Positions 19,371 to 26,467 of a stretch of 64,000 nt of DNA are shown here, one piece after another (position 1 is the first letter of the stretch; the number at the start of each line of letters is the position of its first letter). The notes beneath the pieces are model-generated. The model worked only from the letters and a program-made list of their open reading frames with translations. It was not told the DNA's origin and did no database searches. Location of the stretch: contig CAMCIC010000013.1 in NCBI GenBank assembly GCA_945874895.1, forward strand, positions 1-64,000. Reading direction: 5' to 3'. The DNA comes from Akkermansia muciniphila. Its GTDB lineage: Bacteria; Verrucomicrobiota; Verrucomicrobiia; Verrucomicrobiales; Akkermansiaceae. The position numbers and the translations under genes were made by a program.

Positions 19371-20510
19371 TCACGGATGGAGAGCATCTGCCTCCACCAG
19401 ATGACTCGCGCCCTTGCATACAATTTCGAGCGTTTGATCTTCCGGTTTTGTGATCGTGACGGACGATGTCAATTCCGTGAAAAAACCCTTGCGCACATCT
19501 TTGATCGTGAGGTCACCATTCGCATCGATGCGATGCTGGAATTTATTCGAACTGTTGGGCACTCCGAAGCCTTCAGCCCTTGCCGCAATATGGAACTTTT
19601 CTCCTTTCACCACCTTGACTTCCCCGTCGATATCGACAACCACCCTTTTCACAGAGGCGGAAGCAAGCGCGTTGGGAAACTTCCAAATTTCCTTGTAAGG
19701 AGTGCCCAGTAGACACAAAAGCATTCCTAGAGCAATCACAGGAGCGTAGCAAAAAAACTGCCAGGTGGGAACCTCACGCTTGAAGATCTGCCGAGGAATG
19801 TATTTCCGCCTATCCGAGAGACCCAACGCGTGGAATAACACGATGGCCACAAACCACATGATTGCAGCGGACCAGACGACATCTGATAGAAAATGCCCGC
19901 CCTGCGCAGCCCGGACCCATCCGAGTGCCAGACCGAGTGCGAGGCCAAAAGCAGCCGTCAAACAACGAGCCATTGTCATTCTTTGGGGAATGGCCAGAGC
20001 TACGGCAAAAAAGAAGAAGCCCATGGTCGCATGTCCACAGGGAAAGCTTTTCCCCTGCGACTCCCCCATCCAGACAAGGATGGGTTCAAAAGTTTGCGAT
20101 CCCCCAAACTCACGCAACTGGGAAGGACGCGGCCTGCCCCACAATCCTTTCAATAGGGCGTTGGCAATCAAACCAGATCCGACCAGCAGAGTGAGAACGA
20201 GATATCCTGCGATTTTCCTGTACTGAGCAAAGGCCATTCTACCGATGCCGAACAACAGAACTCCCAGAGCCGCCAAACCCACGAACAGTGCGGGAAGAAC
20301 TCCTAAGTTATAAATTCTCTCCACCCAAGGATGTTCCGCATAGCGCCATACAGATTTGTCCGCGTCCCAGAATCCGCGCTGCACGTGCACATCGAGATCG
20401 AAGATACGAATGCATATGGTCGCAAGTACAACGACCACTGCCGGTAAGATTATCGTGAGAAAAAATCCAGAATTACGCAACCGCACAAACCTAGCTATGC
20501 TTCCAGCCAT
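19371..20510 (-). CDS. PAP2-family membrane phosphatase with extra C-terminal beta domain
   Basis: About 379 residues from the ATG at 20510; another ATG at 20564 is possible but would run into the divergent gene. Membrane segments span most of residues 1-270. The three PAP2 phosphatase motifs are present: KGLWGRPRP, PCGHATMG (Cys in place of the usual Ser) and RAAQGGHFLSDV. The family removes phosphate from lipid phosphates such as undecaprenyl pyrophosphate or lipid A (LpxE/LpxF types). After the last membrane helix, about 110 residues (from WKFPNALASASVKRVVVDID onward) form a soluble, beta-rich tail resembling the putative adhesin or head-GIN domains of DUF2807/DUF4097 type. This tail is not part of a standard PAP2 enzyme. 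The neighbouring lipid glycosyltransferases favour an envelope lipid as substrate (inference). Confidence 0.85.
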   Translation of the reverse strand: MAGSIARFVRLRNSGFFLTIILPAVVVVLATICIRIFDLDVHVQRGFWDADKSVWRYAEHPWVERIYNLGVLPALFVGLAALGVLLFGIGRMAFAQYRKIAGYLVLTLLVGSGLIANALLKGLWGRPRPSQLREFGGSQTFEPILVWMGESQGKSFPCGHATMGFFFFAVALAIPQRMTMARCLTAAFGLALGLALGWVRAAQGGHFLSDVVWSAAIMWFVAIVLFHALGLSDRRKYIPRQIFKREVPTWQFFCYAPVIALGMLLCLLGTPYKEIWKFPNALASASVKRVVVDIDGEVKVVKGEKFHIAARAEGFGVPNSSNKFQHRIDANGDLTIKDVRKGFFTELTSSVTITKPEDQTLEIVCKGASHLVEADALHP

Positions 20511-20608
20511 CAAAAGGTCAACGGAAAATCGTGGTTGAATTCGTTGCAAGAAATCTCTTGCCATGTTGCAGAAAATCCGCGTCACTTCGACAGCTTTCGC
20601 CCGTATCC

Positions 20609-21376
20609 GTGACTTTGCAAAAATCATTTCGCTCCTCATGGAGAGCCTGCTTGTGCGGCATCCGTAAATACGGTGCAAAATCTCTCGCATGGTGGCTGGT
20701 TTTCAGTCTAACCAGCGTATTATTGCTCTGTCAGTATGACGAACATGCCGTCCTATACGCCACAAAGTTCGGGCTCGGCTGGTTCACAAACGAGAGACTG
20801 AAGCTGGCAGCTCGTGTGATTCACAGTTACGGCGACATCGAAATCTTTGTCGTCGCTCTGGGCTTGATTCTCTATGCCATCGGAAAGATCCGTTCCAATG
20901 CTTATTTCACCCGGACTGCTAGCTCGTTGTTTTTAGCAGGTGCCATGGCGGGTATCGGTGTTCAGGTCATTAAGTTTAGTGTCGGCCGACCCCGCCCACC
21001 TCTTGTTCAACAAGGAAAGGCCCATGCCTGGTCTTTCGCAGGCCCAACATTGAGCGCCAAGTATCGCTCGTATCCCAGTGGCCATTCGACAAGTGTCGCT
21101 ACCGCGGCGACCGTAATCGCTCTGGCTTTTCCCCGCATGATCCCGCTCGCCATTGCCACTGCGTTCCTAGTCGGAGCCTCGCGAGTGATTCATAACTATC
21201 ACTATCCTACCGATGTTCTCAGCGGATTGGCATTCGGCATGGCGGTAGGAGGCATCTGCGCACGTCATTTGGCACGATTGCGCGAACGCTTGCATCGCAG
21301 GGCTCAATGGCTTGCTTCCTCAGGTCGCCAAAAAACGAGTTCCACCCAAGAGCTATCTGCTGCCGACCAGCCTTGA
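20609..21376 (+). CDS. PAP2-family membrane phosphatase
   Basis: About 255 residues if started at the GTG at 20609; a further GTG at 20531 is in frame but its product looks like antisense of the opposite gene. Hydrophobic helices alternate with the PAP2 motifs KFSVGRPRPP, YPSGHSTSVATAA and SRVIHNYHYPTDVLSG, which carry the Lys/Arg, Ser-Gly-His and Arg-His-Asp catalytic residues. The protein ends in a basic cytoplasmic-type tail. It diverges from a second, different PAP2 gene. Its last 73 bases overlap the end of the convergent ArnT-type gene, an unusual 3'-to-3' overlap in which both frames appear real. It may act on lipid A phosphate, undecaprenyl pyrophosphate or phosphatidylglycerophosphate; the sequence does not decide. 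Confidence 0.87.
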   Translation: MTLQKSFRSSWRACLCGIRKYGAKSLAWWLVFSLTSVLLLCQYDEHAVLYATKFGLGWFTNERLKLAARVIHSYGDIEIFVVALGLILYAIGKIRSNAYFTRTASSLFLAGAMAGIGVQVIKFSVGRPRPPLVQQGKAHAWSFAGPTLSAKYRSYPSGHSTSVATAATVIALAFPRMIPLAIATAFLVGASRVIHNYHYPTDVLSGLAFGMAVGGICARHLARLRERLHRRAQWLASSGRQKTSSTQELSAADQP

Positions 21377-22950
21377 ACCGTCATAGCGCCATCGGGGATA
21401 GAGAGACCTTTTGCGCCATCTTTCGCCTCGGGCCGCTCGCCCCTCCAAATCGCCAAACATGTTTTACCGTCCGCCCGCCAGCGCCTTTTGATGGATACAC
21501 AGAAATCGGCATCTGGGGGGAATTCTTTCTGAAAAACCCATTGATGGGAGCCATACCAGACCAGACTGGGCTCGGTAAATCCAACTGCCGCAGGATGATG
21601 AAACTCGCCTCCCGATTTTTTTATCAATCGCTTGACCGCATGAACCTCCGATGCGTTATGAGCCATGACTTGAAAACCGATTACAGCAAATGCCATAGCA
21701 GCAAATGGAAGAATCCGGCGGTTCAGCCCCACTGCGAGCGATGCGAGCGAAATGCCAGTGAGCACCATCGCGAGACCAGCAAGCATTCCGGATAGCGCTG
21801 AATCGAACGCCACTGCCTTGACCGAACCATACGTGATGACGATGGCAAGAAGGCCAAAAATCGTGAACGGCAAAGCCGCGAGAATGAGCCTTGCTCTTTT
21901 CAGCCCCTTATCCCAACCCTTCGCCAATAGCAAAAAGAGAGCGGGATAGGCGGGCAGGATGTAATGGGGCAGTTGAGTCGCGTATCCAGAAAAAATCAGG
22001 ATCGGCGCGATGGTCCAGCAAGCTAAAAAGCGAGAATCTCGCTCAGGTTCGCGTGCCGCTGCGAAAGCACCCGCAAGCGCTCCTGTCCAAGGAGCAAAAA
22101 ATAGCGGCAGGACGATCAGATAATAAATCCCAGGAATCACTTTCCTATGATTGAATCCTTGCAGTCCACGGTCTACCACGTGAGTCCCGATCCCTACTTC
22201 AAAAAACAAGCCCCGCGTGGCGAGCAGCGCAGGTATCCCCCACAGTGCCACGAGCCCCAGAGCAGGCAACTGCGCCCATGCCCAGAATCCGAGCATCTTG
22301 CGCGCCATTTTCTGATCGGGCGCACCCTTCCACTTTTCCCAAACGAACAGAAGCAACAATGCCGCTAGGGGGACGACGATAGCCAAAGGTCCTTTGGCCA
22401 AAAACCCCAACCCCATCGAAAGCCAGAGGACGTGAAACCATCGGCTTTTCAGGAGAGAACTTTCTTCCGTCTTGGCACTTCCCAATTCCCAAAAAGCTCG
22501 CATGGTGACGATCAGCATCACGAGCATGTGCATGTCAGCCACCGCGATCCTGCCGTGAATCATCACCTGAAGGCATGTCAACCACCCGCCTGCTGCCAGG
22601 GCGCACTTTCCTGAAGGTAAGCCCAAGCGCCTGGCGAAAGCATAGATCAACCACATGGAGGCCAAGGCGGATAGAACCGTGGGCATACGCACCGCCATTT
22701 CTGTTTCTCCGAGGATGCTCAACCATGGCGACATGAGCCAGTAGGTGAGCGGCGGCTTGTCGAATCGAAATCCGCCATTGAACCAAGGCACCACCCAATC
22801 ACTTCGCTCCATCATCTCCACCGCCGCCCGAGAAAAACGCGGTTCATCGCGATCCAACAAAGGCAGATCACCGATGCCCGGGAATAAAAAGAGAAAACCT
22901 GCCAAGAGCAGGATGCCTATCCACTTGCGGTCACTCATCTGCCCTGCCAT
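21304..22950 (-). CDS. ArnT-type GT-C glycosyltransferase (GT83/PMT_2 superfamily)
   Basis: 548 residues with about a dozen hydrophobic helices and a C-terminal soluble part. The N-terminal loop carries the ArnT/PMT signature: LDRDEPRFSRAAVEMMERSD, VVPWFNGG and FRFDKPPLTYWL, with the acidic pair expected to bind the metal and lipid-linked sugar. Enzymes of this type take a sugar from a polyprenyl phosphate on the periplasmic side and add it to lipid A, LPS core or protein. It is the last gene of a minus-strand operon and overlaps the LAB_N gene by 20 bases, suggesting coupled translation. The sugar is probably the one made by the upstream epimerase and GT2 genes (inference). It may be an Rgt-like galacturonosyl transferase rather than an aminoarabinose transferase, since no aminoarabinose synthesis genes are seen. 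Confidence 0.85.
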   Translation of the reverse strand: MAGQMSDRKWIGILLLAGFLFLFPGIGDLPLLDRDEPRFSRAAVEMMERSDWVVPWFNGGFRFDKPPLTYWLMSPWLSILGETEMAVRMPTVLSALASMWLIYAFARRLGLPSGKCALAAGGWLTCLQVMIHGRIAVADMHMLVMLIVTMRAFWELGSAKTEESSLLKSRWFHVLWLSMGLGFLAKGPLAIVVPLAALLLLFVWEKWKGAPDQKMARKMLGFWAWAQLPALGLVALWGIPALLATRGLFFEVGIGTHVVDRGLQGFNHRKVIPGIYYLIVLPLFFAPWTGALAGAFAAAREPERDSRFLACWTIAPILIFSGYATQLPHYILPAYPALFLLLAKGWDKGLKRARLILAALPFTIFGLLAIVITYGSVKAVAFDSALSGMLAGLAMVLTGISLASLAVGLNRRILPFAAMAFAVIGFQVMAHNASEVHAVKRLIKKSGGEFHHPAAVGFTEPSLVWYGSHQWVFQKEFPPDADFCVSIKRRWRADGKTCLAIWRGERPEAKDGAKGLSIPDGAMTVQGWSAADSSWVELVFWRPEEASH

Positions 22951-23302
22951 TTTTCATGTTTCGTAAATCCAGATACAAATTGTATACCGATACAAATGCG
23001 GGGAAAAGGTTGGACAAGATGCCGACGGAATCATTTTTCCCGAAAATAAAATAAGACAGCAGGCAAACGGAACCGAGCACCGACATGATCCAGAAGATGC
23101 GCGGCATTTTTACCTGCTTGGCACGACGCGATGCCAGCATTTGCGGAAGCCAGCGACCGCCAAACATCAACACACCCACGTATCCAATCAGTTTCCATGG
23201 TACAATCACGATGGAGCGACCAAGGAAATCACCCTCCCAGATCGGGCTTTGCATGAATGACGTCGAGCCGATCACATCCAGCATCATGGCCGAGGTCGTC
23301 AT
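22931..23302 (-). CDS. Lipid A biosynthesis N-terminal (LAB_N) domain membrane protein
   Basis: 123 residues with three hydrophobic helices. The signature of the LAB_N family (a small domain distantly like MtN3/SWEET helices) is visible in [40 protein letters not shown] and [15 protein letters not shown]. The start ATG overlaps the GT2 stop in an ATGA, and its end overlaps the ArnT-type gene, so the three are translationally coupled. LAB_N proteins are often encoded between a GT2 polyprenyl-phosphate sugar synthase and a GT-C transferase. The exact biochemical role is not settled; a membrane anchor or flippase-like partner for the soluble GT2 enzyme is plausible here, because that enzyme lacks membrane helices. 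Confidence 0.85.
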
Positions 23303-24009
23303 TTCACCACCTCCTTTGCTGTGGTTTCTTCGACATCAAAACGCACCTTGCGTTTCAAAATCCAAGACACGCCAAAAAGATCGTGGATGCCGCGCAGGGC
23401 TCGATCGAAATTCGTGTATTTGCTGGTGCCGGCAAGCCGCTCCCGATGGTTCACCGCAACTTCGGAAAAATGATATCCGGCTTGCAAGAGCAGTGCGGGA
23501 ATGTAGCGATGCATGCCGTTGAAAGGGATCAGGTGCTCGACACATTCGCGACGCATCATCTTTAATGAGCAACCCGTATCACGCACTCCATCATTCAAAA
23601 AAGCGCGGCGTATCGCATTTGCCGCACGAGACGCGATTCGGCGAGACTTGGTATCTTTGCGCACAGCGCGGTAACCACAAACAAAGTCATGACCTTTGCT
23701 CGACAATTCGTCAAAGAGCTTGGGGAAGTCCGCTGGATCATTTTGCCCATCGCCATCCATCAGCCCGATCCACTCGCAGGTGGCCGCTTTCATCCCCGCA
23801 TACATCGCAGAGGATTGACCGCGATTGACTTTACCAGCTAGCACCCGCACACGAGGACTGCATCGCAGAAGCTCAAGCCGCGTTTTGTCCGCTGAGCCAT
23901 CATCGACCGCTATGATTTCGGCATCTGGGTTGGTTCTGATGACTTCTTCCAGCACCGCAGCGGCGTTTTCTTCTTCATTGTAAAAAGGGATGACTATCGA
24001 GTATTTCAT
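23299..24009 (-). CDS. GT2 polyprenyl-phosphate sugar transferase (DPM1/ArnC/RgtE type)
   Basis: 236 residues forming a single GT-A fold: [20 protein letters not shown] at the N-terminus, [12 protein letters not shown], the metal-binding DGDGQNDP near residue 105, and [14 protein letters not shown] in the acceptor region. It lacks the C-terminal membrane helices found in ArnC and many RgtE proteins, and so resembles dolichol-phosphate mannose synthase DPM1. It would charge undecaprenyl (or dodecaprenyl) phosphate with a sugar from UDP or GDP, making the donor for the two GT-C enzymes in the same operon. It starts 11 bases after the upstream GT-C stop and overlaps the LAB_N gene by 4 bases. 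The sugar identity is inferred only from the linked epimerase. Confidence 0.88.
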
Positions 24010-24020
24010 GATTGCTTGGA

Positions 24021-25502
24021 TCAGTGAGGATTTTCGCCAATCTGGGGCCAGTGAGCCAGTGGTTTGGATCGGTAAAAATGGAATTTCTGCTCAGGCCGTG
24101 CGGGATGCAGGGGGACGGAAGCCAGATACTCCGCACCATCAAAGACATCCGGTGGCGTGCGCGGAGCGTTTTTCGCGCCTTTGTCTTCCACCACTAACAA
24201 GAGATTTGCCTGGGTGGGTGGCGCGTTCCAAAGATCGTATTGGGAGCGTATTTCCCCACTATCATTCCATAGCCATACGGAGGGATGATCGTGAAGATGA
24301 AAAGCCAAGTGTGAGGCACTGAAACGATGTCCGATGACGACGATCGCGTCATCTTGGCGCCTGAAACGATCCAATGATGCTGCCAATTCTTTGTATCCCT
24401 CCCACCCACGCAGCTGAGGTTTGATCCATCCGTATTGATAAATCGTATTCATCAAAAACGGCACGGTCATAGCGATCAGTGTCATGGAGAGGGAAATGCA
24501 GAAAGCCCATTTCCAGAATTTCTTTTTGCTCTGAAAGAGCAGGAAGGCCATGACGACCAGCGGCGAAATGTAGACGATAGGCCAATTCGGATTCACTTGC
24601 TGCCGCAGCGTCATCAAAGCACAAAAGCAAAAGGGCAGCGCTCCCCATATCCAAAAAAACTGGATGGCTTGGGTTTGGCTGCGTAGGGCCCTGGATACGC
24701 TGGCGACCGCCATGAGGCAAAGGATGAAAACCACGGGCGAGACGAGCAGTGCCGTCACTCCGAACAATTCTCCGATGCGAGAAAGAAATGGCCCAAGGCC
24801 TAATTTCGCAGGCGCGAAATGATGGGCGGTATGTTGGAACGTGATCCAATCATTGGAATAATTCCACATCAACGATGGCACCAGAACCACGAGAGATCCC
24901 ACACTGGCGGCGAACAGTTCCCAGCGCCTCAACAAATCGCGCCGCATCCATACTGCGGTAATCGCAAGCAAAATGATCTGCATCATCATCATTTGCTTGA
25001 AAAGTGATCCCATGCTGATGGCCAACCAAAGATGAAAAAAATGCGAACCCTTCGGTTTTTCCTCATGCATGATTCGCGCGATCATCCATAAGCCCCCATT
25101 CCAGAAAAACACCAGCGGGGCGTCCGTCGTCAGGAAAGACCCAAGCAACAGATTACCAGGCGAAAGGACGAGAATGCAAGCTGCCGATCGCGCGATGGTA
25201 TCGCCAGAAAATTTCCTCACCGCGAGGAAGAGAAATGCCACGCTCGACGTAGCCAACAGCGCAGCGCACGCTTTGATGCCGTATGCCGATTGACCACCAA
25301 GCTCAGCAACCAACCTGTGGAGCCATGCGATACCGGGCGGCTTGCTAAAATAACCCCAGTCGAGCTTACGCCCCCAGTCCCAATAGTAGGCCTCGTCCCC
25401 CACGATGCCGATCGGTTCGCAGGCGTGCCAAAATAGGCGCAGGAATAAGATCAATGCTAAGATGGCCCACATTGCGCCGCGTTTTGCAAACAAATCTCTC
25501 AT
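24021..25502 (-). CDS. GT-C glycosyltransferase of the PMT_2/GT39-like group
   Basis: 493 residues starting at the ATG at 25502, which shares an ATGA with the stop of the upstream epimerase; an earlier in-frame ATG at 25529 would give a longer overlap and is less likely. Many membrane helices follow. The first periplasmic loop has [20 protein letters not shown] then PPGIAWLH, the acidic and KPP motifs of polyprenyl-phosphate-sugar-dependent transferases. Several DolP-mannose or Und-P-sugar transferases share this arrangement. It is the second GT-C enzyme of the operon, so one sugar could be added at two sites, or the two enzymes could use different acceptors. The acceptor is unknown. Confidence 0.85.
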
Positions 25503-26467
25503 ACCAACGTCTTTTTCATGCGCAGCCACTCGACATAACTTTGCAGACCTTGCTGCAAGGGGAATGTCGGGTTCCAGCCAAGCATGTCTTGCGCTTTGCC
25601 GATGTCGGCATGCGTCAAAGGCACATCCCCAGGCTGTTCAGGAGCCTGTTGAATCTTGGCTTCTCGTCCCAAGGCATCTTCAAGCATGGAGATCAAATCG
25701 CTCAAGCGAGTCGTGGCACTCCCTCCCAAATTGATCACTTCGTAGTCCCCGCCTTTGTCATCGAACGAACTCATGATCCCCCGCACAATGTCGTCCACAT
25801 AGGTGTAGTCGCGACGCGAATGTCCATCACCGAAGCGGGTGATGGTTTTCCCATCGAGTATGGCGCGGCAAAATTGCGCGATCGCCAGATCAGGACGTTG
25901 CCTTGGTCCATAAACCGTGAAGAATCGCAAGCAACGAGTCCGGATGCCAAACAAATGACTGTAGTTTGAGCAAATTTGCTCACTGGCCAATTTGGTCGCC
26001 GCGTATGGGGAAATCGTGCGCCCGATCGGATCCGTTTCGGAAAATGGTGCTTTTTGATTCACTCCATAAACGGATGATGAAGATGCAAAAATAAAGTTGC
26101 CCACCTCATGATGACGGCACGAGTCAATCAGATTGAAGGTCCCCTCAATGTTGGTCGTCATGTAAAGCTTGGGCTGCTGAATGGAAGGACGCACACCAGC
26201 ACGCGCTGCCAAATGAACAACCAGATCGAATCGACCCTGAACGAAACACCGCTCGACCAGAACGGCGTCACGAATGTCGCCTTCGATCAACTTGATATGC
26301 GGGAGCACTCCCGATAGATTGTCGCGCTTGATGCGCGAATCATAGGAATCATTGAAATCGTCAAAAACGGTCACGTCCCATCCATCGTTCACCAATCGTT
26401 CGGTCAGATGTGAACCGATGAAGCCTGCGCCTCCCGTCACCAATACTCGTCCTCGCGTTCCAAACAT
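25499..26467 (-). CDS. NAD-dependent nucleotide-sugar epimerase, UDP-glucuronate 4-epimerase type
   Basis: 322 residues, an extended short-chain dehydrogenase. TGGAGFIGSHL binds NAD near residue 11; DDFNDSYDSRIKRDNL resembles the glucuronate epimerase group (DNFNxYY...LK); SSSSVYG and SPYAATK give the Ser and Tyr-x3-Lys catalytic residues; FFTVYGPRQRPDLA and RRDYTYVDDIVRG are group-typical. The likely reaction is UDP-glucuronate to UDP-galacturonate. It heads the glycan operon and is coupled to the next gene by ATGA. Upstream, 26468-26751 holds no convincing gene; its A/T-rich part next to the ATG is probably the promoter region. It could instead be a UDP-glucose 4-epimerase or a dehydratase, but the motif set favours glucuronate. 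Confidence 0.85.
   Translation of the reverse strand: MFGTRGRVLVTGGAGFIGSHLTERLVNDGWDVTVFDDFNDSYDSRIKRDNLSGVLPHIKLIEGDIRDAVLVERCFVQGRFDLVVHLAARAGVRPSIQQPKLYMTTNIEGTFNLIDSCRHHEVGNFIFASSSSVYGVNQKAPFSETDPIGRTISPYAATKLASEQICSNYSHLFGIRTRCLRFFTVYGPRQRPDLAIAQFCRAILDGKTITRFGDGHSRRDYTYVDDIVRGIMSSFDDKGGDYEVINLGGSATTRLSDLISMLEDALGREAKIQQAPEQPGDVPLTHADIGKAQDMLGWNPTFPLQQGLQSYVEWLRMKKTLV

Follow-up and report, generated by a model that had tools for sequence, protein, structure and literature searches.

The first 64,000 nucleotides of the Akkermansia muciniphila contig CAMCIC010000013.1 (assembly GCA_945874895.1; hereafter the window) contain a seven-gene locus that we read as a putative system for removing the phosphates of lipid A and capping the exposed positions with galacturonate (GalA). 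Five of the genes lie on the minus strand, in the order epimerase, GT-C 2, GT2, LAB_N and GT-C 1. The operon opens with a short-chain dehydrogenase/reductase (SDR) epimerase (25499..26467) of the UDP-glucuronate 4-epimerase (UGAepi) type, predicted to convert UDP-glucuronate (UDP-GlcA) to UDP-GalA. It is followed by a PMT_2 glycosyltransferase of 502 amino acids (aa), GT-C 2 (24021..25529; PF13231, E 1.7e-18), proposed to act at the 4' position in the manner of RgtD; a soluble GT2, an RgtE-like polyprenyl-phosphate sugar transferase (23299..24009; PF00535, E 3.7e-31); a LAB_N protein of the SemiSWEET/PQ-loop type (22931..23302; PF07578, 72.2 bits against a Pfam cut-off of 26.7); and the 548-aa, ArnT/RgtF-like GT-C 1 (21304..22950; PF13231 and PF02366), the proposed transferase for the 1 position. 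Two PAP2 phosphatase genes complete the set: an LpxE-like one on the plus strand (20531..21376, with a possible GTG start at 20609; PF01569, 82.6 bits) and an LpxF-like one on the minus strand (19371..20510; PF01569, 75.9 bits), the open reading frame (ORF) of which opens at 20690 with the likely start at ATG 20510.

All seven ORFs and family assignments of the original prediction withstood ORF and family-profile checks, while its description of the layout needs amendment. The 4- to 20-base overlaps hold for GT2/LAB_N (4 bases) and LAB_N/GT-C 1 (20 bases), but the epimerase and GT-C 2 overlap by 31 bases, provided that the GTG start is right, and GT-C 2 and GT2 are separated by an 11-base gap. 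The two PAP2 genes are mutually divergent if the minus-strand gene starts at ATG 20510 and not at 20690, but the plus-strand PAP2 is convergent with GT-C 1, the two genes meeting tail to tail with a 73-base overlap at the 3' end of GT-C 1.

Whole-genome searches of the 97% complete host genome placed both PAP2 genes, both PMT_2 GT-Cs and the sole LAB_N at this locus, and the locus GT2 is the only GT2 of its family in the genome at E 1e-30. Elsewhere in the genome are LpxC, BacA/UppP and a single UDP-glucose dehydrogenase-type gene; the latter is adjoined by a gene with a Ser-Glu motif that, by this motif, we take to be of the UDP-glucuronate decarboxylase type. The set is not peculiar to one Verrucomicrobium: the same families keep company elsewhere, with the genes rearranged in other Verrucomicrobiota, and also in other phyla, and because of this recurrence we regard the set as more than a chance assembly. 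One locus from the window's own family (L033) has all seven genes and another (L040) has six in a different order. The system is nevertheless patchy within this family, since no genome of one of its genera (g2) is among the 45 LAB_N-matched or the 35 LpxF-like-PAP2-matched genomes.

A Rhizobiales locus, L212, connects the window to the Rgt system of rhizobia. L212 encodes a 244-aa GT2, LAB_N, a 549-aa GT-C and a PAP2; compared by order and size, it matches in its order and main sizes the Mesorhizobium loti array rgtE (RS01125, 244 aa), an unnamed gene, rgtF (RS01135, 547 or 549 aa) and lpxE (RS01140, 271 aa) (PMC7795004, PMC5644692). The tag between rgtE and rgtF, RS01130, goes unmentioned in the available excerpts of these two papers. 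The window has the linear order of L212, except that its PAP2 is inverted, and the identities are 42% for GT2 (222 columns), 36% for LAB_N (77), 28% for GT-C 1 (351) and 31% for PAP2 (115). The relation to Rgt thus goes beyond the analogy originally proposed: four of the window proteins, namely GT2, LAB_N, a GT-C and a PAP2, have homologues in a Rhizobiales rgtE/rgtF/lpxE-type locus, and the GT2, GT-C and LpxE-type PAP2 are neighbours in the rgtE-rgtF-lpxE order. Dephosphorylation and polyprenyl-linked hexuronate addition of the Rgt type are supported, with lipid A as the presumed acceptor. GalA at C-1 of lipid A, added via RgtF, has been reported (PMC7795004, PMC5644692, PMC7663294); Oligotropha carries two GalA residues and has rgtE, lpxE and rgtF homologues on consecutive tags (PMC7663294), and Azospirillum lipoferum is among the bacteria with lipid A 1-GalA and an rgtF-like gene (PMC7795004). 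We find GT2-LAB_N-GT39 on an A. lipoferum plasmid.

The identity of the sugar is addressed by the epimerase. Its closest solved sequences are 5u4q (E 6.8e-79), 6zl6 (E 3.9e-59) and, further down the ranking, MoeE5 (6kv9, E 3.2e-51). We take 6zl6 to be the Bacillus cereus 4-epimerase, and its numbering agrees with that used in the papers on this enzyme; window residues S130/S131/S132, T184 and R191 align with its T126/S127/S128, T178 and R185. MoeE5 is a UDP-GlcA 4-epimerase, and in the B. cereus enzyme the carboxylate is bound by T126/S127/S128/T178, with Glu at position 128 in decarboxylases (PMC7984243), and that of UDP-GalA by R185 (PMC12338863). The window epimerase keeps all of these residues except Thr126, replaced by Ser, and has Ser and not Glu at position 128; S131, S132, T184 and R191 are invariant across nine epimerases from Verrucomicrobiota and Proteobacteria. 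Because the epimerase carries UDP-glucuronate 4-epimerase residues, the hexuronate of the original prediction is likely galacturonate, with UDP-GalA as the best-supported donor precursor. That the added sugar is instead GlcA, another uronate or a hexose appears distinctly improbable, given that the epimerase heads the same operon and has Ser where decarboxylases have Glu; what speaks for it is that the best NCBIfam model of the epimerase is GalE (TIGR01179; 201.6 bits, below the cut-off of 262.3), that 5u4q is titled dTDP-glucose 4,6-dehydratase, that the genome holds the presumed decarboxylase-type gene beside its dehydrogenase, that the sugar preference of a GT2 is not readable from sequence, and that an epimerase lies within 2.5 kb of LAB_N in just 5/41 Verrucomicrobiota loci and 0/40 Rhizobiales loci.

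We refer to the phosphatases only as LpxE-like and LpxF-like, as neither reaches an NCBIfam equivalog cut-off. For the LpxE-like family, the profile (A4) finds LpxE 6ebu as its best match in the PDB (E 5.6e-15); the best NCBIfam model of the window protein is SepP (40.8 bits, below cut-off), and no LpxE model is among the NCBIfam matches of the window proteins. The minus-strand PAP2 has LpxF as its best NCBIfam model (91.9 bits, below the cut-off of 400), as do 11 of the 12 LpxF-like homologues scanned, all below cut-off, the remaining one (L116) matching PAP2_lipid_A; in the PDB, the top matches of the LpxF-like profile (A3) are PgpB and YodM, at a weak E of 1e-4. The PAP2 motifs KX6RP, PSGH and SRX5HX3D (PMC6581854) are present in both proteins, the minus-strand one having PCGH and lacking the Ser before the third-motif Arg; its K181, R188-P189, G219-H220, R260, H266 and D270 are invariant in six sequences. 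It is also extended by a further helix and a beta-rich C-terminal domain (residues about 310-439; window 19374-19763, minus strand), neither of which the shorter homologues L042 and L051 have. The model of this protein, built from six sequences, is of low confidence, with a mean predicted local distance difference test (pLDDT) score of 69.7.

To relate phosphatases to transferases, we typed by profile 44 PAP2 genes in 160 loci, counting genes as adjacent at 300 bases or less. The adjoining GT-C is of the ArnT/RgtF-like type for 20/20 LpxE-like PAP2s and of the second type for 8/9 LpxF-like PAP2s (Fisher p 2e-6, uncorrected for relatedness and including some weak LpxF-like calls, such as L139 with 23 bits at a contig end); the remaining 15 are not adjacent to a GT-C or have none in the locus. 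In the window, GT-C 1 is closest to ArnT in NCBIfam (NF009784; 133 bits, cut-off 567), GT-C 2 has no NCBIfam match, and the score between the two, 22.7 bits, led us to reject GT-C 2 as a duplicate of GT-C 1. The pairing by type suggests that each end of lipid A has its own phosphatase and transferase, and the window, with one LpxE-like and one LpxF-like PAP2, is consistent with both phosphates being removed and both ends capped. Alternatively, undecaprenyl phosphate-linked GalA (Und-P-GalA) could serve another acceptor, such as the lipopolysaccharide (LPS) core, O-antigen, an exopolysaccharide or a glycoprotein, with one or both PAP2s recycling undecaprenyl pyrophosphate (C55-PP). SepP, the best model of the plus-strand PAP2, is an undecaprenyl-diphosphatase, LpxE enzymes also act on C55-PP (PMC6581854), PgpB and YodM head the PDB matches of the LpxF-like profile, and membership of a GT-C family does not reveal the acceptor. 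We nonetheless consider another acceptor unlikely: the minus-strand PAP2 scores best with the LpxF model, each type of phosphatase tends to adjoin one particular type of transferase, the gene order fits the rgtE/rgtF/lpxE locus, and BacA/UppP is encoded elsewhere in the genome, which rules out the plus-strand PAP2 as its only undecaprenyl-pyrophosphatase.

In one Rhizobiales locus (L214:4356-5987), beside LAB_N and a GT-C, an LpxE-like PAP2 and an RgtE-like GT2 form a single 544-aa ORF, the only two-family ORF among 471 ORFs with matches. The fusion comes from a single genome, the one genome of its genus in the search, and a plasmid search returned no record covering 80% of it; it may be an assembly error.

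The window GT2 resembles ArnC (solved sequence 9hwj, E 1.5e-22), with 33% identity to E. coli ArnC versus the 42% to the L212 GT2. As judged by a hydropathy count of the GT2 tails, with E. coli ArnC as the positive control (value 2.62), this GT2 family lacks the C-terminal helices of ArnC. It had been suggested that LAB_N makes up for the missing helices. The hydropathy count does not support LAB_N as a helix substitute, as GT2s without LAB_N are mostly helix-less too: helices are missing in 64/65 GT2s with LAB_N nearby, in 8/8 with a VTT protein instead and in 27/31 with neither, and two of the four exceptions in the last group are ArnC-like second GT2s of L104 and L109, loci that do carry LAB_N. 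These two Pseudomonas loci have epimerase-GT2-LAB_N-GT-C beside a second, arn-like set. The view that LAB_N anchors the GT2, or serves it as a scaffold, and is no transporter draws on the absence of helices from the GT2 itself and on the tight coupling of the two genes: of the 43 GT2 loci with LAB_N, 39 have them within 120 bases of each other. Since helix-less GT2s of this kind are also found beside VTT or beside neither protein, and since LAB_N is SemiSWEET-like (see below) and is placed in the Pfam MtN3-like clan (PMC4499210), we regard a scaffold role as unlikely.

What LAB_N resembles was established by profile comparison. Searched against the PDB with E values up to 10, a profile of 27 LAB_N proteins (A1) returned six matches, all of the SemiSWEET type; the best, 4qnc (E 7.1e-6) and 5uhs (E 1.6e-4), cover the full three-helix unit, and the conserved Gln of LAB_N faces a Gln of the SemiSWEET in the alignment. 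Three of the six bear the name SemiSWEET, two more (4x5m and 4rng) are described as such, and 4qnc, titled 'chemical transport protein', differs from SemiSWEET 5uhs by one residue in the aligned stretch. The AlphaFold 2 (AF2) model of the window protein (mean pLDDT 88) has three helical spans, the first split in two. The LAB_N label is carried by some members of the PQ-loop family; to the PQ-loop superfamily belong SWEETs and also MPDU1, which is needed for dolichol-phosphate-sugar reactions (PMC3281891). The long LAB_N ORFs of L070 and L036 show LAB_N alone in Pfam, with no fused domain. One genome has a tandem pair of LAB_N matches (G252:C89:12898-13403) and a third match on another contig.

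LAB_N is present in 45/240 Verrucomicrobiota genomes and, over the cut-off, in 117/297 Rhizobiales genomes. To examine its gene company, we sampled 40 loci from the 44 other Verrucomicrobiota LAB_N genomes (leaving out G054, G072, G152 and G225) and 40 of the 117 Rhizobiales genomes, hand-chosen and mostly with long contigs. Within 2.5 kb of LAB_N we found a GT2 of the window's family in 24/41 Verrucomicrobiota and 40/40 Rhizobiales loci, a GT-C in 17/41 and 32/40, and a PAP2 in 8/41 and 20/40, respectively. A GT2 of this family occurs somewhere in 44/45 LAB_N genomes versus 29/195 others (E 1e-70, counted by eye), an association inflated by the GT2 alignment (A2) having been drawn mainly from LAB_N-adjacent GT2s. 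Approached from the GT2 side, in the best 80 of 549 GT2-relative loci, from Proteobacteria, Verrucomicrobia, Hydrogenedentota and others, LAB_N is present in 43, a share that is likewise inflated. These 80 include L077, a duplicate of L049 that we dropped from the GT2 tree and the pairing count, and five loci scored as LAB_N-less (L083, L133, L143, L154 and L156) have LAB_N elsewhere in the genome. On a Paracoccus plasmid (L158:4056-8014), LAB_N, GT39, GT2, a small ORF and an epimerase stand in a row beside two-component system-type genes.

In the same 80 loci, LAB_N lies within 3 kb of the best GT2 in 41, a VTT/DedA protein in 8 and both in none; taken over all 43 LAB_N loci, the lack of overlap has p 0.0013 if the two are independent, uncorrected for relatedness. 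The VTT proteins were confirmed as PF09335 in 5/8 loci, as was that of an Alteromonas macleodii plasmid on which GT2, VTT, GT39, a phosphoethanolamine lipid A transferase and a diacylglycerol kinase stand in a row (L159:4902-10193). On a quick GT2 tree (107 rows, with long-branch warnings, L071 grouping with ArnC), the VTT label requires six changes, at least two of them forced by well-supported branches. UptA is presumably of the DedA type. Undecaprenyl phosphate is flipped by UptA-type transporters (PMC11474028). Since the slot between donor synthase and transferase is filled by either LAB_N or VTT, carriage of the lipid-linked sugar is suggested, and we put LAB_N forward as a candidate flippase or utilisation factor for Und-P-GalA and as a possible bacterial counterpart of MPDU1. 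Tentatively, and with somewhat less than even confidence, we extend this proposal to LAB_N proteins in general, which as a family of SemiSWEET-like Und-P-uronate flippases would supply the transport step so far lacking from three-part polyprenyl-phosphate-sugar systems, with the window as a seven-gene cassette that would turn bisphosphorylated lipid A into a bis-galacturonate form.

Besides the GalE score of the epimerase, several observations weigh against this overall picture. None of the NCBIfam equivalog matches of the seven window proteins reaches its cut-off. In the window, the GT-C closest to the LpxF-like PAP2 is the ArnT-like one, at 617 bases, and not GT-C 2, so that only the LpxE-like PAP2/GT-C 1 pair is adjacent here, and at the genome level the association of LpxF-like PAP2 with LAB_N in Verrucomicrobiota is weak (11/45 versus 24/195, p 0.058). 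Foldseek ranks AtSWEET13 first for the LAB_N model at a non-significant E of 0.37 (prob 0.92) and the top 50 of VIA-align list no SWEET; the SemiSWEET claim therefore rests on the sequence profile. GT2 is missing within 2.5 kb of LAB_N in 17/41 Verrucomicrobiota loci, and both LAB_N and VTT are missing from the neighbourhood in 29 to 31 of the 80 GT2 loci. Finally, 8 of 16 hand-picked genomes are without any LAB_N (seven from Caulobacterales/Phenylobacterium/Hyphomonadaceae and one Methylobacter), and the Caulobacter control genome gives no LAB_N match, even though lipid A of Caulobacter is described as having the same backbone with two GalA residues (PMC7663294). LAB_N is therefore not a universal part of the pathway: in LAB_N-less genomes other carriers must exist, or LAB_N is dispensable. 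Three alphaproteobacterial loci without LAB_N encode, downstream of the GT2, a small hydrophobic protein that looks similar by eye in all three (L125:9638-10075, L127:10217-10672 and L153:8796-9368); the L125 copy has no Pfam match.

On balance, the locus is probably a complete Rgt-type system of lipid A dephosphorylation and galacturonate capping. In the mechanism that we propose, UDP-GlcA would be supplied by the genome's single UDP-glucose dehydrogenase-type enzyme and epimerised to UDP-GalA, and the soluble RgtE-like GT2 would load GalA onto undecaprenyl phosphate at the cytoplasmic face. The SemiSWEET-like LAB_N, probably as a dimer, would carry Und-P-GalA to the periplasmic face or present it there. 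The LpxE-like PAP2 would take off the 1-phosphate, with ArnT/RgtF-like GT-C 1 adding GalA in its place, and the LpxF-like PAP2 and GT-C 2 would do the same at the 4' position. On this reading, some Verrucomicrobiota are predicted to have lipid A that lacks phosphates and carries galacturonate, which would bear on outer-membrane charge and on lipid recognition. How lipid-linked monosaccharides cross membranes is unsettled, and the function of MPDU1 was called unknown in 2012 (PMC3281891); if LAB_N performs this step, the bacterial three-gene modules offer a small test system.

Compared with known systems, LAB_N is like SemiSWEETs in its profile match across the whole three-helix unit with the Gln aligned, and differs in that its substrate would be lipid-linked. 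SemiSWEETs carry free sugars. In the Arn pathway, which attaches 4-amino-4-deoxy-L-arabinose (Ara4N), the GT2 ArnC makes the Und-P-sugar, small membrane proteins move it and the GT-C ArnT transfers it to lipid A. The gene set of a GT2, a small membrane protein and a GT-C is thus shared, whereas ArnC has C-terminal helices, the sugar differs, and the annotated flippase subunits ArnE/F belong to a family other than LAB_N. MPDU1, required for reactions of dolichol-phosphate sugars, shares with LAB_N the PQ-loop superfamily, a likeness by superfamily and not by direct alignment; it is a 247-aa protein of the endoplasmic reticulum (ER), and the accessible part of the cited account names no bacterial counterpart (PMC3281891). 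Closest is the Rgt system of rhizobia, Oligotropha and Caulobacter, with the same GT2, GT-C and PAP2 classes, sizes and order and a presumed polyprenyl-phosphate-GalA donor (PMC7663294, PMC7795004, PMC5644692). Unlike Rgt as described in the portions of these papers at hand, which do not name LAB_N as a component, the window unites all parts, plus the epimerase and LAB_N, in one Verrucomicrobium locus, making the set an unusually complete member of the Rgt kind and LAB_N a component with a role that can now be tested.

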